From a virus: a DNA stretch of 20,320 nt. Shown one piece after another: positions 12,354-20,320 of the stretch. Location of the stretch: the IMG/VR virus record IMGVR_UViG_3300033064_001388, positions 1 through 20,320 of that record; one strand, written 5' to 3'. The translations under genes and the position numbers were made by a program. Numbering within the stretch: the first letter of the stretch is position 1; each line of letters begins with the position of its first letter. Under the pieces are notes generated by a model. That model was not told the DNA's origin. It saw nothing but the letters and a program-made list of their open reading frames with translations, and did not search any database.

Positions 12354-13118
12354 TTATGCCGGGAGTGCCTTAAACGCATCGAGGCCGTGTTTGGTAATGA
12401 ACTCTGATTTGTCCTTCGGTGTCAGGAGTTCACTCCGTTTCGTGGCTCTGATGCCGGAAAAGGCGCTACTTCCCGGACCGCCCGTGTTTCGCGAGCGGAC
12501 GTAATGTGCAAACTTCGGATTTGCCGCCATGAATTCGACTGCCTTGTCAACCGGAACGAACTCGCGCTTGATCTGACCGTTCTCGTCGGCTGCAACATCA
12601 ACCTCGAAGAGGTCATTGTGTTTTCCCGTCGGCTTCCCGTCTTCTCCCAGGACCGGCTCCCGTTTGTGGACGGAGAGAAGCCGCGGCACAATGTCTTCCG
12701 CAGGGTTGATGAATTTGTCGCCGACTGTGCCCAGAATGGCGTTGGTCAACTGAGTTCGGACGTGAGATTCACGCTCGACTTTCAGGTTGGCCTCAGCCTG
12801 TTCTGCACGGGTCATGGTCGTTTTCAGTTGCGTGGCCACCTTGCCTTCGGCTTCGGCCTGGGCGTGAGAAAGCGATTCTTCCATCTGCGTCTTTTCCGCA
12901 CGGAGTTCGGTCAGGAGCCGTTCGAGGTCAGGCGTCTTGATGGCCTGCGCTTCGAGTGTCTTGATCTTGTCCGTTTGGCGGGCCAGCCGCTCTTGGATCG
13001 TCGCGTTCATCTTGTCCTTGGTCACGGCGTTCGTGACCGTCGCCTCTTCCTCGCCGATCTTCACGAGATTGCCTTCACCGTCCAACAGTTGACCTTCGGC
13101 ATTGATTTGCAATTCCAT
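12354..13118 (-). CDS. Scaffolding protein (coiled-coil, GP20-like)
   Basis: A 254-residue protein with ATG at 13118 and an AAAGGA about 10 nt upstream. The N-terminus MELQINAEGQLLDGEGNLVK is a short beta-rich stretch. Residues about 35-120 form a long charged coiled coil (RLARQTDKIKTLEAQ, LLTELRAEKTQMEESLSHAQ, RAEQAEANLKVERESHV). The remainder contains the DKFINPAEDIVPRLLSV and VDKAVEFMAANPKFAHYVRS segments, common in phage scaffold/minor structural GP20-type proteins. The C-terminus (TPKDKSEFITKHGLDAFKAL) is probably the capsid-binding helix. Its location directly before the major capsid gene supports the role. No protease motif is seen. Confidence 0.75.
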   Translation of the reverse strand: MELQINAEGQLLDGEGNLVKIGEEEATVTNAVTKDKMNATIQERLARQTDKIKTLEAQAIKTPDLERLLTELRAEKTQMEESLSHAQAEAEGKVATQLKTTMTRAEQAEANLKVERESHVRTQLTNAILGTVGDKFINPAEDIVPRLLSVHKREPVLGEDGKPTGKHNDLFEVDVAADENGQIKREFVPVDKAVEFMAANPKFAHYVRSRNTGGPGSSAFSGIRATKRSELLTPKDKSEFITKHGLDAFKALPA

Positions 13119-13205: not shown

Positions 13206-14654
13206 TCAGGTTCCCGTTTCCTGTCCCGCCTGCTGCGTGATGGTGTTCATCATCATCAACTGTGCTTCACGTTCCTGCGCTTTCACTGCCTCCAGTTCCT
13301 TTTCGATGTCAAGGTCTGGCGGCAGAATTTCATACCTTTTGAAGAGTTCGAGCAGAGTCCGCTTGGTGAGATCGTTGTTATCCACCAGCCCCCTTAGCGC
13401 CTGAACCATCGTAAACTGAATCATCTTGTCATCGAAGTCCCGGTTGTAGGAGATCTCGATCTTGGCGTCTGCTTTGCCCCGCCACTTCGCCATGATCTCC
13501 CAGCACTGCAACTCGGAGTCTTCGAACCACTGCGAAACGGTTTTGAGGGACGAAGCGAACATCCGCCGGTCTTCCCGCTGCGCGTCTTGGGATTGAACCT
13601 GGGCCGAGTCTTTCTTTGCCTGGGCGAGCGCGATAGAGAGAATCCGGTAGCGCAGATCTTCGATGCTGGCCCGAATGGAACTGAACCCCGCACCTGTCGG
13701 CTCGAGGTAGGCCACCTGGATAACGTCACCCTGCCCGCTCTGGATCCAGAGCCCATCCCCGACGTCCATTTTTTCCATCTTGGTCGGGGATACAACGTAG
13801 GGGATCGGGTGCGAGGAGAGGTGCTCAAACCAGTCGAGGTCCGAGTCTTTGTTGTAAATCTGAACTACGTGGTCGAGCACTGACCGGGTGACCGGCCATC
13901 CTGAAAATTCACTGCGCTTTGTGCCATAGAACGGGACGATGGGGACCACCCCGAGATTGTGACTTGCTCTGGCCGTTTCGATGTAGCGGCTGTCAGTGCC
14001 GGTTGCGCTTTTGCTCGCCTGCTCATACTGAATCCACTCCGTGCGGGTCCAGATTGTCCATGCGGGGGTGACTGCCGGATCGAGACCCACCTGGTCTTCC
14101 GTTCGAGAAACGATGGAGTTTTCCTTGATGATCACCCAGATGAGTTTCTGGTCAGTATCAACCGCCCAGTCGAGCACGCTGGCGGCCGGTACAGACTCAA
14201 AAAATGGGCGATGCCCAGCGTCACGTTCAGCCGCAGCCGAAGGATATCCACTCTCGGGTAGGCGGGTATGATTGACCAGCACCCAGTGCAACCCGTCAAT
14301 CTGAGCGTTCTCCGCCACACCCATGAAGTACAGGTTGGAGGGAGTCCCCTGGTTATCAACGTCAGGCTCGAATGCCTTCAGGTCCGGGGCGATTTCCCGC
14401 TTCGCCTCTTTGGAGAACAGGAGGGCTTGACGCGCCAGAATGATTTTCTCAACGAACGGATCCAGCACAGCCCGCTTGACGCGCCGATCATAATCAGTCG
14501 TGTCTTCGTTTTTCCCCTGGATGAGGTACGTGGCTTTTTTCGTTTCCGACTTGACCACGTCGCTGCCCTCATAGAGGTCACGGGCCTTGACCCGAACATC
14601 CTCAGTGGTCTTATAGTCAGGATGGACCCGATTGAAATCGCGCGTGTCAGCCAT
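13206..14654 (-). CDS. Portal protein
   Basis: ATG at 14654 overlaps the last base of the large terminase stop (TGATG), giving 482 residues; an in-frame upstream start at 14717 lies inside the terminase gene and lacks support. Early YEGSDVVKSETKKATYLIQG, then FVEKIILARQALLFSKEAKR, then IDGLHWVLVNHTRLPESGYP, match the wing and stem start of SPP1 gp6/DUF4055-type portals. SVPAASVLDWAVDTDQKLIW is the typical 'P-x-x-V-x-x-W' beta segment. Near the C-terminus a helix-rich tail (KELEAVKAQEREAQLMMMNT) fits the crown. It forms the dodecameric DNA channel at one capsid vertex. Downstream, 87 nt without a gene separate it from the scaffold gene. Confidence 0.8.
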   Translation of the reverse strand: MADTRDFNRVHPDYKTTEDVRVKARDLYEGSDVVKSETKKATYLIQGKNEDTTDYDRRVKRAVLDPFVEKIILARQALLFSKEAKREIAPDLKAFEPDVDNQGTPSNLYFMGVAENAQIDGLHWVLVNHTRLPESGYPSAAAERDAGHRPFFESVPAASVLDWAVDTDQKLIWVIIKENSIVSRTEDQVGLDPAVTPAWTIWTRTEWIQYEQASKSATGTDSRYIETARASHNLGVVPIVPFYGTKRSEFSGWPVTRSVLDHVVQIYNKDSDLDWFEHLSSHPIPYVVSPTKMEKMDVGDGLWIQSGQGDVIQVAYLEPTGAGFSSIRASIEDLRYRILSIALAQAKKDSAQVQSQDAQREDRRMFASSLKTVSQWFEDSELQCWEIMAKWRGKADAKIEISYNRDFDDKMIQFTMVQALRGLVDNNDLTKRTLLELFKRYEILPPDLDIEKELEAVKAQEREAQLMMMNTITQQAGQETGT

Positions 14655-16150
14655 CAGAACACCCCCACACCGGCGAAGACACCGGCCTTTTCCTCTGATG
14701 TGTACCGGGTCAGACACCCGAATCCGCCAGCCGTGGCGTCAAGTTGGTCATCATGTGCGCCCTTCGGGATAGACTCAGCCTCTGAGAGGTAGTCCCGGTT
14801 CCAGGGGCCCTGCACCAGGTAGACGTTCCCGGCCTCAGCCTGGGCGGACAACGGCCCCATCCGCACGAACTTGTCGCCGGTTGCAGTCACCCCTCGAACG
14901 TCATAGCCGTTCAGGACCTGGCGCACGTAGTAGTCGATAGCCTGCACCCCGGACGAGCCGGGCTCGCGCTCGATCCGAATCGGCACCGCGTGGCCGTCTA
15001 ACTCGGCAGTCTGCTTGACCAGGGCTTCCACCTTCTGGGGCGTCTCCCGCACCCGCCGCACGTCCTGGATGTAGTAGCACTTCGAGGCAGGGTCGCGGCC
15101 GATCTTGACGCCTGCGGTCCAGTCGGGATCGTTGCCCTGCTTTTTCTCAGACGCGGCGAAGTCCCAAAATCGGACGCTCTTCAGCCCGGCGGGAACCCGA
15201 TCGGCGGCGACAATCTGAAACCATTGCCGTTTGAAGATGCCACCTTCACGGGGCGCGGGGCGTTGCTGGAGTTGGCCGGCGGCGGCGTAGGAGCCGAGCT
15301 GCGCTTTCAGGTGCTCAAGTTCGTCTTGCCCGTATCGCTCTTCCCATAGAAGATCATTCTCCCGGGTTCGTGGATCATTCCAGCCGATAGAGGTGATGCA
15401 GGACCGTTGAGGTTCGTATTCAGCCGGCAGACATAGATGCTCCCATCCCCCCATTTCGAGGATATGCCCAGCGAGGTCGCGTTCATGCACCCGCTGCATA
15501 ATGACAACGTATGCCCCCCGGCGAGGATCGTTCAGCCGGGTAGACATCGCTTCATCCCACCAGGTCAGCGCGGCTTCCCGGGTAGGCTCAGACTCGGACT
15601 CTCGGACGTTGTGCGGATCGTCCACAACGATGATGTCTCCGCCTTCACCCGTCAGGGAGCCGTCAACAGAGGTAGCGATTCTCACCCCGCCCTTGTCATT
15701 CTCAAATTTCTGTTTCGTGTTCTGGTCGCCGGTGAGCCGGAACATATCCCCGAAGTGCTGACGGTATAGGTCGGATTCAATCAGGCGCCTGCACTTGACC
15801 GAGTCTCGGATGGATAGGCTCTGGGCATAGGAGGCGTACAGGAGGCGGAGACCAGGTCCACCGAGCGTGTCTTCCTTGGGTTTCTGTGCCCACAACCAGG
15901 CGGGCCAGGCGACGCTTACGGTGATGCTCTTGCAGTGGCGAGGCGGCACGTTGATAAGGAGCCGCCGAATGTCTCCACGCGCCACGGCTTCGAGGTGTTC
16001 ACAGATGGCGTCGATATGCCAGCCATGCACGTATTCCGACGGGTCCATATACCGCCAGAACTGTTGGATGAATTCCGCCAGTGACCGACGCGCGATGTCG
16101 CAGTCGATCTCTTCTACAGTGGCGGGTCTGGGTTGGTCAGTTGTCAGCAT
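14654..16150 (-). CDS. Terminase large subunit
   Basis: A 498-residue packaging motor and nuclease. The ATPase domain has a Walker A variant (VPPRHCKS, residues 68-75) and Walker B IIVVDDPHN (173-181). The C-terminal RNase H-like nuclease has RFWDFAASEKK (Asp330), RIEREPGSSG (Glu395) and HDDQLDATAGGF (Asp467/468/471), so all acidic positions expected for the two-metal site are present. Length is normal for the family. The start overlaps the small terminase gene by 14 nt. The ribosome site is weak (AAAGAA), implying coupling to the gene before it. It translocates DNA into the prohead through the portal and cuts it. Confidence 0.95.
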   Translation of the reverse strand: MLTTDQPRPATVEEIDCDIARRSLAEFIQQFWRYMDPSEYVHGWHIDAICEHLEAVARGDIRRLLINVPPRHCKSITVSVAWPAWLWAQKPKEDTLGGPGLRLLYASYAQSLSIRDSVKCRRLIESDLYRQHFGDMFRLTGDQNTKQKFENDKGGVRIATSVDGSLTGEGGDIIVVDDPHNVRESESEPTREAALTWWDEAMSTRLNDPRRGAYVVIMQRVHERDLAGHILEMGGWEHLCLPAEYEPQRSCITSIGWNDPRTRENDLLWEERYGQDELEHLKAQLGSYAAAGQLQQRPAPREGGIFKRQWFQIVAADRVPAGLKSVRFWDFAASEKKQGNDPDWTAGVKIGRDPASKCYYIQDVRRVRETPQKVEALVKQTAELDGHAVPIRIEREPGSSGVQAIDYYVRQVLNGYDVRGVTATGDKFVRMGPLSAQAEAGNVYLVQGPWNRDYLSEAESIPKGAHDDQLDATAGGFGCLTRYTSEEKAGVFAGVGVF

Positions 16151-16739
16151 GTTCTTTGTGAGACTCGGAGGTTTTGGCGCGGAGTTCTCGGTAGGCCTTG
16201 AGTTCTTTTATGGATAGTTTGGAGAGGTCTTCGACCTGGTGCTGAATCGGGCCGCCGTTCGGGCCGGAGTGCTCTACTCTCTCAACATAGAGCCCGAGGT
16301 ACTTCATGAGCATTTCGAGAGACGCCCGCTTGTCGTGCATCTTGATAGCCAGACAACCGTCTTTTGTCTCTCGGACGCTCTCAATCGCGGCTTTCACGTC
16401 GGGAGAGAGTTCGGCAAAATCTTTAATCGTCACAGTTCCACCGGTTACGGTCAGGACATCGGGCAGGTTTGAGAAGGCCAGTTTGCGGATTTCGTCCAAG
16501 ACGCGCTCTGCGGTTATCTCGGCTTTCTGGGCCATTTTCCCCATGTGCTGCTGAATCGCAGCCATGATTTCGGGTTTCTTCAATACCTCATGGCCGATTG
16601 CAGGCGCGGACTTTGGGCTGTACCCAGCGCGAAGTGCCGCTTTACTCGCGTTGAAGTCTTTCACGTATTCCTCGACGAATCGTTTTCGCTTGGGTGCTAG
16701 CCTGTGTGGGGGTCGGGGAAGGTGTCTGGCTGCGCTCAT
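16137..16739 (-). CDS. Terminase small subunit (Terminase_2 family)
   Basis: The chosen ATG at 16739 has AGGTGA 4 nt upstream and yields 200 residues; an in-frame start at 16838 would place about 33 residues across the hairpin region and is rejected. LAPKRKRFVEEYVKDFNASK followed by AALRAGYSPKSA is the typical Terminase_2 helix-turn-helix start. A middle KAEITAERVLDEIRKLAFSN and a C-terminal coiled-coil-like stretch (SKLSIKELKAYRELRAKT) are also family-like. It recognises the packaging site and regulates the large subunit. It is the first gene of the late operon, 99 nt from the predicted transcript start. Confidence 0.9.
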   Translation of the reverse strand: MSAARHLPRPPHRLAPKRKRFVEEYVKDFNASKAALRAGYSPKSAPAIGHEVLKKPEIMAAIQQHMGKMAQKAEITAERVLDEIRKLAFSNLPDVLTVTGGTVTIKDFAELSPDVKAAIESVRETKDGCLAIKMHDKRASLEMLMKYLGLYVERVEHSGPNGGPIQHQVEDLSKLSIKELKAYRELRAKTSESHKEHADN

Positions 16740-16781: not shown

Positions 16782-16835
16782 CAAAGAAAAAACTCGCTGT
16801 ATCACAGGCCCCAATAGGGCCGCAAAATCAGCGAG
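16782..16835 (-). terminator. Intrinsic terminator in the leader of the late operon (nested hairpin)
   Basis: On the minus strand CTCGCTG (16835-16829) pairs with CAGCGAG (16799-16793), and inside it GGCCC/GGGCC (16821-16817 with 16811-16807) forms a second 5-bp stem. The structure is followed directly by TTTTTTCTTTG. This is a standard rho-independent layout. It would end the repressor-lipoprotein transcript and also block the promoter at 16845-16874 unless overcome. The 7-bp outer stem has an internal loop before the inner stem, so strength is hard to judge by eye. Confidence 0.65.
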
Positions 16836-16844
16836 CACGGGATG

Positions 16845-16874
16845 ACTATATGTGACGGGAACAGATCAGGTCAA
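16845..16874 (-). promoter_or_regulatory. Sigma70-like promoter for the late (packaging/structural) operon
   Basis: On the minus strand TTGACC (16874-16869) and TATAGT (16850-16845) are separated by 18 bp; each hexamer matches the consensus at 5 of 6 positions. The predicted start lies at about 16838, and the terminator hairpin begins about 3 nt later. No other promoter of this quality is seen before the terminase gene. Its start lies in the gap between the lipoprotein stop and the small terminase gene. Confidence 0.6.
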
Positions 16875-16909: not shown

Positions 16910-17926
16910 TTACGGGATGATTGTGCAGGACAGCACATTCCCGTTGAGGTCAACATGTGCGATAGCCGTCTGACGGACTACCCCGCCGAAGCTATTCTTA
17001 CCCCGGAACAACATCTTGACTGTGAGATGATCACCCCGATCTCCGTAGAACGTATCGTCGTGCTTGAATGAATCGGGATCATTCATCTGCGCCTTGACAT
17101 AGGCGACCAGTCCACGGTGAGAACCATTCCACGCGCTGAATTGGCTTTCGACCTCCTTCTTGCGGCTCTCAGTGTTCTTGGTCGACTGGGCTGTTTGTAT
17201 TGGGGCATTCATTTCATCCACCAGCCCCGTTTCTTCTTTCCACTGGTAATATCCTTTGGGGCTGACCCGCCTAATATCGTCGCCCGAGCGATAAACAAAC
17301 ACACGGAGGGTCGGAACCGATCTGTTCTGTGCAGCAACTTCTTTTGCCACTTCCTCCCCTTCGGATATGTCAGAGAGCCCGACGCTAATCGCCCGTGTAG
17401 CGGTGTCGAGCATTTCATCTGCGAGAATGGTGTATGTGACGCCAGAGGATGTTTTTTGAAGAGCGAGCGGCTTAGGTGTTGGCGTTGGCGCAGGCGTCGG
17501 CCTAGGGGTCGGCCTAGGCGTAGGCCTTGGGGTAGGAGTGGCTTTCGGGACAACAGGTGCAGATGAAACCGCAACGGCAGGCGGCGCATATGCCTTCCCG
17601 TAGTCTGTGAAGAGATCCCCATCTGAGAGCATGGCTGTCAGATGATCATCTTGAAGCCAGTAGTAGGAGCCCCCCGGCACGGCTTGGTAGAGATAGTGTT
17701 CTATGCCAGCCGCCTCAAACTTGCCCGACCATTGAACGCGTTCCTGAAGTGCAGCCCGAACCTCGGCAATGCTCATGCCGTGCAGCACCCGCCCGTCCTG
17801 TATCGCCCGACACGCCTCTTTGCTGAGGTCGGGATGGTCCACTGTATAGGACACCCGCCGGTAGGTCTTCCCACAGCCAACCAAAATCAAGATGCAAAGC
17901 AGGGCAACAACAACGCGGTGTCTCAT
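16910..17926 (-). CDS. Phage-encoded lipoprotein with Pro-rich linker (candidate lysogenic conversion / superinfection exclusion)
   Basis: ATG at 17926 is chosen because GGAGGA lies 4 nt upstream and a signal peptide begins right there (338 residues). The hydrophobic core VVVALLCILILVGC ends in a lipobox L-V-G-C (Cys18) followed by Gly, suggesting an outer-membrane or periplasmic-side lipoprotein. Residues 45-100 (HGMSIAEVRAALQERV, SYYWLQDDHLTAML) resemble small BamE/SmpA-like domains. A PTPR-repeat linker spans 130-153. The C-terminus (VKAQMNDPDSFK, FRGKNSFGGVVRQTAIAHVD) matches a small domain seen in other bacterial lipoproteins. It is 43 nt behind the repressor on the same strand, so it is probably expressed in the lysogen. 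Exclusion of other phages is a hypothesis. Confidence 0.75.
   Translation of the reverse strand: MRHRVVVALLCILILVGCGKTYRRVSYTVDHPDLSKEACRAIQDGRVLHGMSIAEVRAALQERVQWSGKFEAAGIEHYLYQAVPGGSYYWLQDDHLTAMLSDGDLFTDYGKAYAPPAVAVSSAPVVPKATPTPRPTPRPTPRPTPAPTPTPKPLALQKTSSGVTYTILADEMLDTATRAISVGLSDISEGEEVAKEVAAQNRSVPTLRVFVYRSGDDIRRVSPKGYYQWKEETGLVDEMNAPIQTAQSTKNTESRKKEVESQFSAWNGSHRGLVAYVKAQMNDPDSFKHDDTFYGDRGDHLTVKMLFRGKNSFGGVVRQTAIAHVDLNGNVLSCTIIP
17499..17534 (-). repeat. Three tandem 12-nt repeats encoding the PTPR linker
   Basis: Three near-identical 12-nt units (17499-17510, 17511-17522, 17523-17534; plus-strand core GGCCTAGG or GGCCTTGG) encode repeated P-T-P-R in the lipoprotein. Flanking codons continue the Pro/Thr/Ala pattern less regularly. 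Such in-frame tandem repeats can change copy number by slippage and so vary the linker length. They are not CRISPR-like, as there are no spacers. Confidence 0.7.
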
Positions 17927-17969: not shown

Positions 17970-18746
17970 TCAAGGGCTTTCCCGAATCAGGCCGATGACC
18001 ACGCCGAAGAAACGCATCTGCTCGTTGAACGGGATCGGAATAAACTCATCCGTGTTGATGCTGCCCAGAACCTGAACCACGGGCCACCAGGCCTTCAGCA
18101 CGTAGCGACCTCCCCCAATATCCACAATCACATGGTCGCCATTCTTCAGCCAGCCGTCAGGCGCCTCGATCCGTTCGACCAGAATTACATCCCCGTCCTG
18201 ATACCGGGGCATCATAGACCGCCCGGAGACGCGCAGGGCGGCCACCGTAGAGTTCTTGACCTTCCGGTGAAGCATCCGTTCCGCAACCGGAATACAGTCG
18301 ATTTCAAGCTCCGCCCAACGCCCAACCCAACTGTCCGGGAGAGATTCATGGTCGAGGCGAACATCCTCAGCGGGGGAAGCCATGGGGCCAGCCTCGACGG
18401 CCCCGAGGATCGGCACGATAGAGAAGTGGGTTTCTCCACCGCCTTGATCAACCCAGAGGCGTTGGCCACGGCGACGGATGACTTCGGCCCTTTCGGGATC
18501 TGGCTCCATTCTCTCAACCCGAACCGGAGTATCCCCTATCAAGGAATCCACTTCTATTTTGAAAATTTCGGCCAGTTTCTTGATTTTTTGAAGGTCTGGC
18601 ATGTGCTTCCCGCACCGCCAATTACTCACATTTTGCCGACTCTCCCCGAGTTTTGCCGCCACAAATGTCACCTTGATCCCCGTTTCTCGGAACAGAGAGT
18701 CAAGTTTTTCTGAAAAGAATTTTCGCTTTGGGGACACGTATCTCAT
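17970..18746 (-). CDS. LexA/CI-type autocleavable phage repressor (HTH + S24 peptidase)
   Basis: ATG at 18746 has AAGGGG 4 nt upstream (258 residues). An in-frame TTG at 18803 or ATG at 18794 would add up to 19 atypical residues and cannot be excluded. Residues 12-70 are an XRE-type HTH (KLGESRQNVSNWRCGKHMP). The middle carries an Ala-Gly cleavage site (GAVEAGPM, Ala119-Gly120). The C-terminal S24 domain has the serine in GRSMMP (Ser177) and the lysine in RYVLKAW (Lys218), so the full Ser-Lys dyad is present. It is expected to hold lysogeny and to be inactivated by RecA-stimulated self-cleavage on DNA damage. It is divergent from the early operon, with a promoter between. Confidence 0.9.
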   Translation of the reverse strand: MRYVSPKRKFFSEKLDSLFRETGIKVTFVAAKLGESRQNVSNWRCGKHMPDLQKIKKLAEIFKIEVDSLIGDTPVRVERMEPDPERAEVIRRRGQRLWVDQGGGETHFSIVPILGAVEAGPMASPAEDVRLDHESLPDSWVGRWAELEIDCIPVAERMLHRKVKNSTVAALRVSGRSMMPRYQDGDVILVERIEAPDGWLKNGDHVIVDIGGGRYVLKAWWPVVQVLGSINTDEFIPIPFNEQMRFFGVVIGLIRESP

Positions 18747-18812: not shown

Positions 18813-18841
18813 TTGACAACGCGCAAAGATAGATAGAGAAT
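18813..18841 (+). promoter_or_regulatory. Rightward early promoter (pR-like)
   Basis: TTGACA (18813-18818) matches the -35 consensus fully. GAGAAT (18836-18841), 17 bp later, matches the -10 at 4 of 6. A ribosome site AAAGGA (18854-18859) and ATG at 18872 follow. It lies in the divergent gap next to the repressor gene, so the repressor is expected to bind here. An A/T dyad, TTTTTT-CC-AAAAAA, at 18794-18807 sits just upstream and may be part of an operator; no repeated operator set is clear by eye. Confidence 0.6.
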
Positions 18842-19180: not shown

Positions 19181-19864
19181 ATGCCTACACTGGACCACAA
19201 AGCACTCTCCCCCCGGCAAACTGAAATTCTGGTTCTGCGCGCTCAGGGGTACACGCACGGGGAAATCGGCGCTCAACTGTTTATCTCGGAACCGACTGTC
19301 AAGAACCACTGCACGACCATCAAGGAAAAGATCGGGATCGTTGGCGGGGTCGGCTTCGCCCGGTTCGCCGTCCGAAACGGGTTGCTCAGCCTCAAATCGT
19401 TCCTCTGCGAGACCCCTGGCGAAGACTCCCCGGGTGGCATCTGCAACGGCTGGGATGTGCTCGATGGCTTGTCGGACTGTCTGACTGTCCTGGCCCGCCT
19501 GAATGCTCATGCCGTGCGGGATCTGGCGCCGGATGACGATACCCCAGGCGACCTCGACCCGGACGAACAGGCGGAATTGCACTACGGGATCCAGACGCTG
19601 ATAGCCCGCCTGCAAGCGACCGATCCATATCAGACTACTCCAATCTCGCCCGATGCCCCTGCGTCGGGCCTTTGTGTTGTGCCAGGGGACCACGCCGTTA
19701 CTGAGCCCGCCAAACATACAGTGAGCACCACTGAGGTGGACACGGCGTTGCAGGCTGCCACGGGTGGGGTTCCCGCTCCTTTCCCCGCCCGTGGTGACCG
19801 TGACTTATCCGTACCAGAGCGACAGGAATTCAACCGTCAGTTTCGATCCAGACTGGAAGAGTAG
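19181..19864 (+). CDS. LuxR/GerE-type HTH protein with unknown C-terminal region (cII position)
   Basis: A 227-residue protein whose N-terminus is a LuxR-type HTH (residues 8-58): LSPRQTEILVLRAQGYTHGE, then IGAQLFISEPTVKNHCTTIK, matching the family's 'L-S-P-R-E, I-A-x-x-L-x-I-S-x-x-T-V-K-x-H' pattern. The domain is at the N-terminus, not at the C-terminus as in classical LuxR regulators, and no autoinducer or receiver domain is present. The rest is acidic and Pro-rich (LAPDDDTPGDLDPDEQAELH) with a basic tail (RQEFNRQFRSRLEE), and is not recognised. It lies between the cro-position gene and the replication gene, where lambda has cII. A transcription activator role is likely; the target promoter is unknown. 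Confidence 0.75.
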   Translation: MPTLDHKALSPRQTEILVLRAQGYTHGEIGAQLFISEPTVKNHCTTIKEKIGIVGGVGFARFAVRNGLLSLKSFLCETPGEDSPGGICNGWDVLDGLSDCLTVLARLNAHAVRDLAPDDDTPGDLDPDEQAELHYGIQTLIARLQATDPYQTTPISPDAPASGLCVVPGDHAVTEPAKHTVSTTEVDTALQAATGGVPAPFPARGDRDLSVPERQEFNRQFRSRLEE

Positions 19865-19867
19865 GCT

Positions 19868-20320
19868 ATGTCCAAGCGATTCATAGACACCGGGTTAGTT
19901 GACAAAGAGTGGTTCGAGGCTCTTGATCCACGGCTAAAATCCTTCTGGTATTACCTGCTTCTCAAGTGTGATCCGGCAGGTGTTTGGGACACAAATTTTG
20001 GCCTCGCGTCCTACCAGATCGGCCAGCCGGTTTCGGATGAAGATTTGGCGGCTTTTGGGGATCGGATTAGGCGGCTCGAATCGGGCAAATATCTCCTGAC
20101 CACATTCATCCGGTTCCAGTACGGGAACCTTTCCCGGAAGTGCAACGGGCACACGTCGGCGATCAAGGCGGCTGAGAAGCATGGTCTTTTTGACTGTTTA
20201 CCGGAAGGGTTCCCGAAGGGTTCCCATGCCCTTCCCGGAAGGGTTATGGACAAGGACAAGGACAAGGACAAAGACAAGGACTCTGTTGAAGGGGGTGTGG
20301 GGGAAACAAATTCACGGAAG
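19868..20320 (+). CDS. Phage replication initiation protein, N-terminal 151 residues (runs off right edge)
   Basis: ATG at 19868, 3 nt after the previous stop; the frame is open to the window end. It begins MSKRFIDTGLVDKEWFEAL, then DPRLKSFWYYLLLKCDPAGV and WDTNFGLASYQIG, the N-terminal pattern of many phage replication organiser proteins. After about 120 residues a short Gly/Pro stretch leads into a D-K repeat (five DK units), a common hinge between the DNA-binding and the helicase-loader-interacting parts. It corresponds to lambda O in position. The DNA under the hinge carries an iteron-like cluster and a tandem repeat, as in the lambda O gene origin. The C-terminal part is missing. Confidence 0.7.
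   Translation, partial: MSKRFIDTGLVDKEWFEALDPRLKSFWYYLLLKCDPAGVWDTNFGLASYQIGQPVSDEDLAAFGDRIRRLESGKYLLTTFIRFQYGNLSRKCNGHTSAIKAAEKHGLFDCLPEGFPKGSHALPGRVMDKDKDKDKDKDSVEGGVGETNSRK
20203..20246 (+). repeat. Iteron-like GGAAGGGTT cluster with an inverted copy (candidate origin)
   Basis: The core GAAGGGTT occurs at 20204-20211, 20215-20222 and 20238-20245, two copies of it followed by CCC. An inverted CCCTTCC lies at 20229-20235. GAAGGG (20215-20220) can pair with CCCTTC (20229-20234) around an 8-nt loop. This dense repetition inside a replication gene is the layout of lambda-type origins. The copies are short and coding constraints could contribute. Confidence 0.45.
20249..20281 (+). repeat. GACAAG tandem hexamer encoding a DK-repeat hinge
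   Basis: Five GACAAG/GACAAA units and a final GAC (20249-20281) encode alternating Asp-Lys in the replication protein. Nearly identical codons suggest expansion by slippage rather than only protein-level selection, as one codon differs (AAA for AAG). The strand is A/G-rich and could also be part of a DNA-unwinding element next to the iteron-like cluster. Confidence 0.75.

Follow-up and report, generated by a model that had tools for sequence, protein, structure and literature searches.

How RNA polymerase would reach a late operon that carries, in front of its first gene, a promoter-like site followed almost at once by a terminator-like hairpin is the question raised by this phage locus. The DNA analyzed, here called the window, has 20,320 nt and constitutes the entire contig C668 in the bin of an uncultured bacterium (4.29 Mb, 840 contigs, 78% complete), to which the phage is tied by binning alone. 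The minus strand, followed from right to left, carries genes for a repressor and a lipoprotein-like protein, a gap of 170 nt, and then terS, terL, the portal gene and a scaffold-like gene, past which more minus-strand ORFs are found (Table 1). Rightward on the plus strand lie an xis-like gene, a GerE-type HTH gene and an ORF cut short by the contig end. The last 60 bases of the window (20261-20320) are identical to the first 60 of contig C247 (L120), and C247 therefore probably adjoins the window in the phage genome and continues its early region. C247 encodes homologues of DnaB, SbcD and SbcC, together with an HTH protein.

Table 1. Positions of the promoter-like sites, leader elements and genes in the window
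Feature	Position (nt)	Strand	Remarks
sigma70-like promoter TTGACC-18-TATAGT, candidate late promoter	16845-16874	minus	10/12
Predicted transcription start	G16838 (alternative G16836)	minus	7 nt past the -10; placed by the spacing from the -10
Nested hairpin of the predicted intrinsic terminator	16792-16836	minus	-25.6 kcal/mol, z -4.58
U-rich tract TTTTTTCTTT	16782-16791	minus	tract score 5.12, top among the structures listed
CTGATCTG, 5' arm of a possible outer helix, or protein site	16862-16869	minus	last -35 base and spacer
CAGATCAG, 3' arm of the possible outer helix	16754-16761	minus	just upstream of the terS Shine-Dalgarno; chance of the helix about 0.02
terS, terminase small subunit	16137-16739	minus	PF03592 (2.2e-35), phrog_51; ATG at 16739, Shine-Dalgarno AGGTGA
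terL, terminase large subunit	14654-16150	minus	phrog_38 (5.9e-90), PF17289
Portal	13206-14717	minus	
Scaffold-like gene	12354-13118	minus	
Lipoprotein-like gene	16910-17924	minus	lipobox LVGC; last gene ahead of the terminator; ATG at 17924 chosen by its Shine-Dalgarno
CI/LexA-like repressor	17970-18746	minus	HTH and S24 peptidase domain
Other sigma70-like site TTGACA-17-GAGAAT, early promoter	18813-18841	plus	10/12; just ahead of the xis-like gene

A promoter-like site in front of the late operon

The preliminary description had placed a sigma70-like promoter before the late operon, and a site that would serve as one was found there. The window contains two sites of at least 10/12, one per strand, with 0.37 expected per strand. 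Since the second, early site also reaches this score, sigma70-type signals appear to be meaningful in this phage. When the 170-nt gap was shuffled 5,000 times with its dinucleotides preserved, a site of at least 10/12 arose anywhere on the minus strand in 0.54% of the shuffles, and at about the observed distance from the hairpin in 0.04%.

The region offers few substitutes. A second minus-strand site of at least 8/12 was not found between 17010 and 16735, and the stretch from the hairpin to terS, which has 67% G+C, contains no hexamer with A2 and T6 usable as a -10; the lone A2/T6 hexamer there, at 16795, falls within the hairpin arm and the U-tract. Consequently, transcription from a local sigma70 late promoter must read through the hairpin. 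The primary sigma factor of the bin includes region 2.4, which we take to be close to the E. coli sequence, and its region 4 falls beyond the contig end. TATAAT-type -10 elements should therefore apply.

No stop codon interrupts the terS reading frame between its ATG and a GTG further upstream at 16838, which coincides with the predicted +1. We considered a leaderless TerS starting at this codon and rejected it, because an open stretch of 33 codons is nothing unusual and the gene has a Shine-Dalgarno sequence and an ATG of its own.

A terminator-like hairpin at the predicted transcript start

Folding of the leader RNA gave a strong hairpin in the place where a nested structure with a U-tract had been proposed. 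With G16838 as +1, the first paired base would be +3. The energy of -25.6 kcal/mol compares with -14.6 ± 2.4 kcal/mol for shuffled sequences, and none of the 200 shuffles was as good. It is the hairpin alone that is unusual; the segment 16838-16730 folded as a whole is ordinary (z -0.83). The G+C-rich hairpin is directly followed by the U-rich tract, and both sequence and fold thus present the anatomy of an intrinsic terminator. Dedicated scans ranked this element above all other terminator-like structures of the minus strand, and no other structure above the threshold on that strand lies in the gap between the lipoprotein-like gene and terS. A general terminator scan found none because its loop limit of 3-8 nt excludes nested hairpins.

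The repressor gene, the lipoprotein-like gene and the late genes share one direction, so that the lysogenic transcript would run into terS if no terminator intervened. As the hairpin sits between the first two genes and terS, it should end this transcript, and we consider it very probable, judging by its placement, that it does so ahead of the late genes. The suggestion that one terminator also closes the lysogenic transcript fits this arrangement well. Polymerase starting at 16838 would meet the same terminator after about 47 nt, and late expression would therefore require either antitermination or leakage.

A putative antitermination switch

Our best reading, held at a probability of about one half, is a late switch resembling lambda pR'-tR' that depends on a phage antiterminator. 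The sequence itself shows a promoter-like site, a terminator-like hairpin, the order of the genes and no other sigma70-like site nearby; from these we infer the use of the promoter, efficient termination, and the existence and loading place of the antiterminator. A host sigma70-type promoter would start the late transcript near 16838, and the terminator, beginning about 3 nt from +1, would stop it after about 55 nt. A phage-made antiterminator, loaded onto promoter DNA in the manner of Q, AlpA or GafZ, would carry RNA polymerase past the hairpin and in this way turn on the terminase-head-tail operon. The repressor-lipoprotein transcript would end at the same terminator, which would keep lysogenic transcription out of the late genes. 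The likeness to pR'-tR' advanced in the preliminary description thus holds for the promoter-terminator pair before terS, terL and portal, whereas the antiterminator it called for is postulated here too, none having been recognized.

In lambda, tR' lies near +194; the terminator here would begin at about +3, with terS as the next gene. The Q systems of lambda and phage 21 likewise have a late promoter and then an intrinsic terminator before the late genes, and 21Q, which has a sigma-region-4-like fold, loads on DNA by binding an element that lies between -35 and -10 and depends on a -10-like pause sequence (PMC6606751). At pR' of Shiga-toxin phage, qut lies partly between -10 and -35 (PMC6266700). 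By contrast, no Q was found here, and a -10-like pause hexamer is absent at about -1 to +7, the only candidate being GATTTT (3/6) at +10 to +15.

The AlpA system of Pseudomonas aeruginosa (alpB, PA0807) shares with our locus a promoter with a terminator close behind it and control by a repressor that cleaves itself upon DNA damage, as the one here presumably does. AlpA binds GGGACG between -10 and -35, requires a -10-like sequence at -1 to +5 and acts on a predicted terminator starting 26 bp past the PA0807 start (PMC7969949; PMC9371919). Unlike in that system, no AlpA-like protein was identified here, the hexamer at -1 to +5 is missing, and GGGACG is absent from both strands of the spacer TGATCTGTTCCCGTCACA. 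In the gene transfer agent cluster of Caulobacter, antitermination by GafYZ governs the head-tail genes, GafZ having a putative element between -10 and -35 (PMC11150451); the terminator there follows the first gene instead of the start site, and GafY and IHF act as activators of the promoter.

Since loading takes place on promoter DNA for Q, AlpA and GafZ, a hairpin near +1 is compatible with Q-like loading. The earlier argument that such a hairpin leaves no room for a qut element consequently loses its force, since the stretch between -35 and -10 on which 21Q, AlpA and GafZ load is present here. The site lacks both a pause hexamer in the expected position and the AlpA motif, and we therefore do not class it as a Q or an AlpA system, suggesting only that it would function like one.

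PHROGs named no antiterminator among the nine proteins of the window and the seven of C247 that were scanned, and the Q-family models PF06530 and PF03589 of Pfam had no match in the bin, which is 78% complete; as Q, AlpA and GafZ share no sequence, this negative result weighs little. A candidate is the GerE/sigma-region-4-like early protein encoded at 19181-19864 on the plus strand, in view of the similar fold of 21Q. Its HTH is N-terminal and is followed by a tail of some 160 residues, which has no relatives. The protein has no relatives in viral contigs and two short HTH matches in phages, and its structure model was unusable (mean pLDDT 36.7).

If the proposed switch operates, a prophage from a little-studied class of bacteria would join the systems whose late genes are gated by promoter-proximal termination, and its terminator would lie closer to +1 than those of the known cases compared, which were taken from the open-licence literature. 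The locus would then be a compact test for how early an antiterminator can load, and the promoter spacer would be the place to look for the binding site of the unrecognized factor.

Alternative explanations

The strongest competitor, possible though clearly less probable than the antitermination switch, is that the hairpin is a plain terminator of the repressor-lipoprotein operon and the promoter-like site is coincidental or weak, in which case the late genes could use, for example, an activator-dependent promoter or antitermination from further upstream. The gene order fits this explanation fully. Four loci with related terL genes (L068, L089, L096 and L105) have terminators before terS and no site of at least 8/12 in the preceding 150 nt, and the assignment of the phage contig to its host by binning also leaves room for it. 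It is disfavored by the shuffles, in which a 10/12 site about as far from the hairpin is rare (0.04%), and by the lack of a -10-like hexamer in the G+C-rich stretch between hairpin and terS.

An improbable alternative combines a real promoter with a leaky terminator, so that a constant fraction of polymerases would read through and late transcription would grow with copy number after induction, no antiterminator being involved. Such a scheme would account for the failure to recognize an antiterminator or a canonical pause hexamer. The hairpin and the U-tract are both strong, however, and steady leakage of head genes is, on general grounds, costly to a lysogen.

Promoter and immediate terminator are also the minimal anatomy of a small-RNA gene, here of about 55 nt and with its own function; this is quite unlikely, as nearly all bases lie within the hairpin and leave no seed, Rfam gave no match, and the bin holds no second copy (besides itself, one 14-bp match, E 2.98).

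The put-like leader RNA that had been suggested, which would make polymerase termination-resistant, is the least credible alternative: a structure starting almost at +1 (here at about +3) recalls putL of HK022, yet putRNA has about 70 nt and two stem-loops without a terminator (PMC9378689), whereas here a single nested hairpin with the U-tract directly behind it has terminator anatomy, and the sequence has no match among phage records.

Comparison with TerL relatives

The relatives of TerL show 30-61% identity. Loci with short upstream sequence were left out (11 of the 82 viral TerL loci and L172 of the 51 genome loci), and L030 entered the terS-upstream survey and not the counts of promoter-terminator pairs. 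The terS-upstream survey covered 70 of 73 loci, L040 and L047 having no terS-like ORF and L077 lying at an edge.

Across 122 loci, the interval 150-1500 nt ahead of the TerL match contains 12 sites scoring 10/12 or better. In some genome loci that match TerL only partly (for example L170, from residue 176), this interval is displaced by as much as about 500 nt. One of the 12 sites, in L055, is followed by a terminator, as is none of the 127 such sites elsewhere. At a threshold of at least 9/12 no difference is seen, with terminators behind 2 of 105 sites before terL and 17 of 977 elsewhere. An apparent enrichment of promoter-terminator pairs before terL at 8/12 or better (10 hits, 3.4 expected) was discarded, because L086 and L087 are near copies and the share of sites with a terminator at 9/12 or better is the same as elsewhere.

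L055 is the sole strong parallel among the 122 TerL relatives. At 195-296 it has TTGTCA-16-TACAAT (10/12) and, at +20, a nested hairpin of -29.7 kcal/mol with a U-tract; beyond the terminator follow a gene for a small cysteine-containing protein, a terS-like gene and terL. A 10/12 promoter-terminator pair also occurs outside the TerL loci, in L025. In seven loci (L051, L053, L054, L058, L074, L075 and L078), a promoter of the type TTGTTA/TTGTCA-17/18-TATACT lies upstream of the terS-like ORF or right at its beginning, and no strong terminator precedes this promoter. On the basis of these TATACT-type promoters, a late promoter adjoining terS is common in the TerL-relative group.

The leader itself, whose comparison in related phages had been proposed, found no close relative among phages, viral contigs and 99 genomes. 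A DNA relative was not detected in phages, nor an exact hairpin match in viral contigs, and the 99 related genomes gave nothing beyond low-complexity matches in the proline repeats of the lipoprotein-like gene. None of the TerL-relative loci tested shares the repressor, the lipoprotein-like gene or the leader, the one match being a proline repeat. A 16-base promoter pattern was found in 22 stretches, none with a -10 or a hairpin after it, and was attributed to chance.

A possible outer helix around the terminator

CTGATCTG has two copies in the window, one in the late promoter, where the spacer between -35 and -10 contains most of it, and one inverted beside the terS Shine-Dalgarno. In computed folds of transcripts initiated upstream, CTGATCTG and CAGATCAG pair around the terminator with high probability. 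A perfect 8-bp helix arose in 1.8% of shuffles and an equal duplex energy in 0.85%, while the whole-fold energy with the outer helix is ordinary, 27% of shuffles being as good. Opening the Shine-Dalgarno costs more in readthrough transcripts when the modeled 3' end lies at 16725-16690, and this difference becomes smaller or changes sign with ends at 16670 and 16650. With an ordinary whole-fold energy and an effect on ribosome access that varies with the modeled RNA end, the helix is a lead only.

One doubtful idea built on this lead is that the two arms distinguish transcripts by their origin. Transcripts from the lysogenic promoter would pair CTGATCTG with CAGATCAG and enclose the terminator, and those that leaked through would hide terS; transcripts from the late promoter, lacking the CTGATCTG arm, would be exempt and, on the same unlikely scheme, need only the antiterminator, which would load before the hairpin at +3. 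In gene e of phage T4, the ribosome site is hidden in early transcripts and exposed in late ones.

Repressor and lipoprotein-like protein

The repressor contains a cleavage-like site, GAVEAG, a serine motif, GRSMMP, and a possible catalytic lysine in YVLKAWW; judging by these motifs, it is presumably self-cleaved on DNA damage. No repressor operators common to the early control region and the late promoter were found. The half-palindrome GAACAGATCRGKTC was examined as a special site and rejected, since its 11 matches are not unusual against 6.6 expected. Contig C538 of the same bin encodes a 46% match to the peptidase part of the repressor. The lipoprotein-like gene, directly downstream of the repressor gene, encodes proline-threonine repeats, and the C-terminal part of its product matches phrog_3403, a family of unknown function. 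The protein is a candidate for a surface protein made during lysogeny, and may act in superinfection exclusion.
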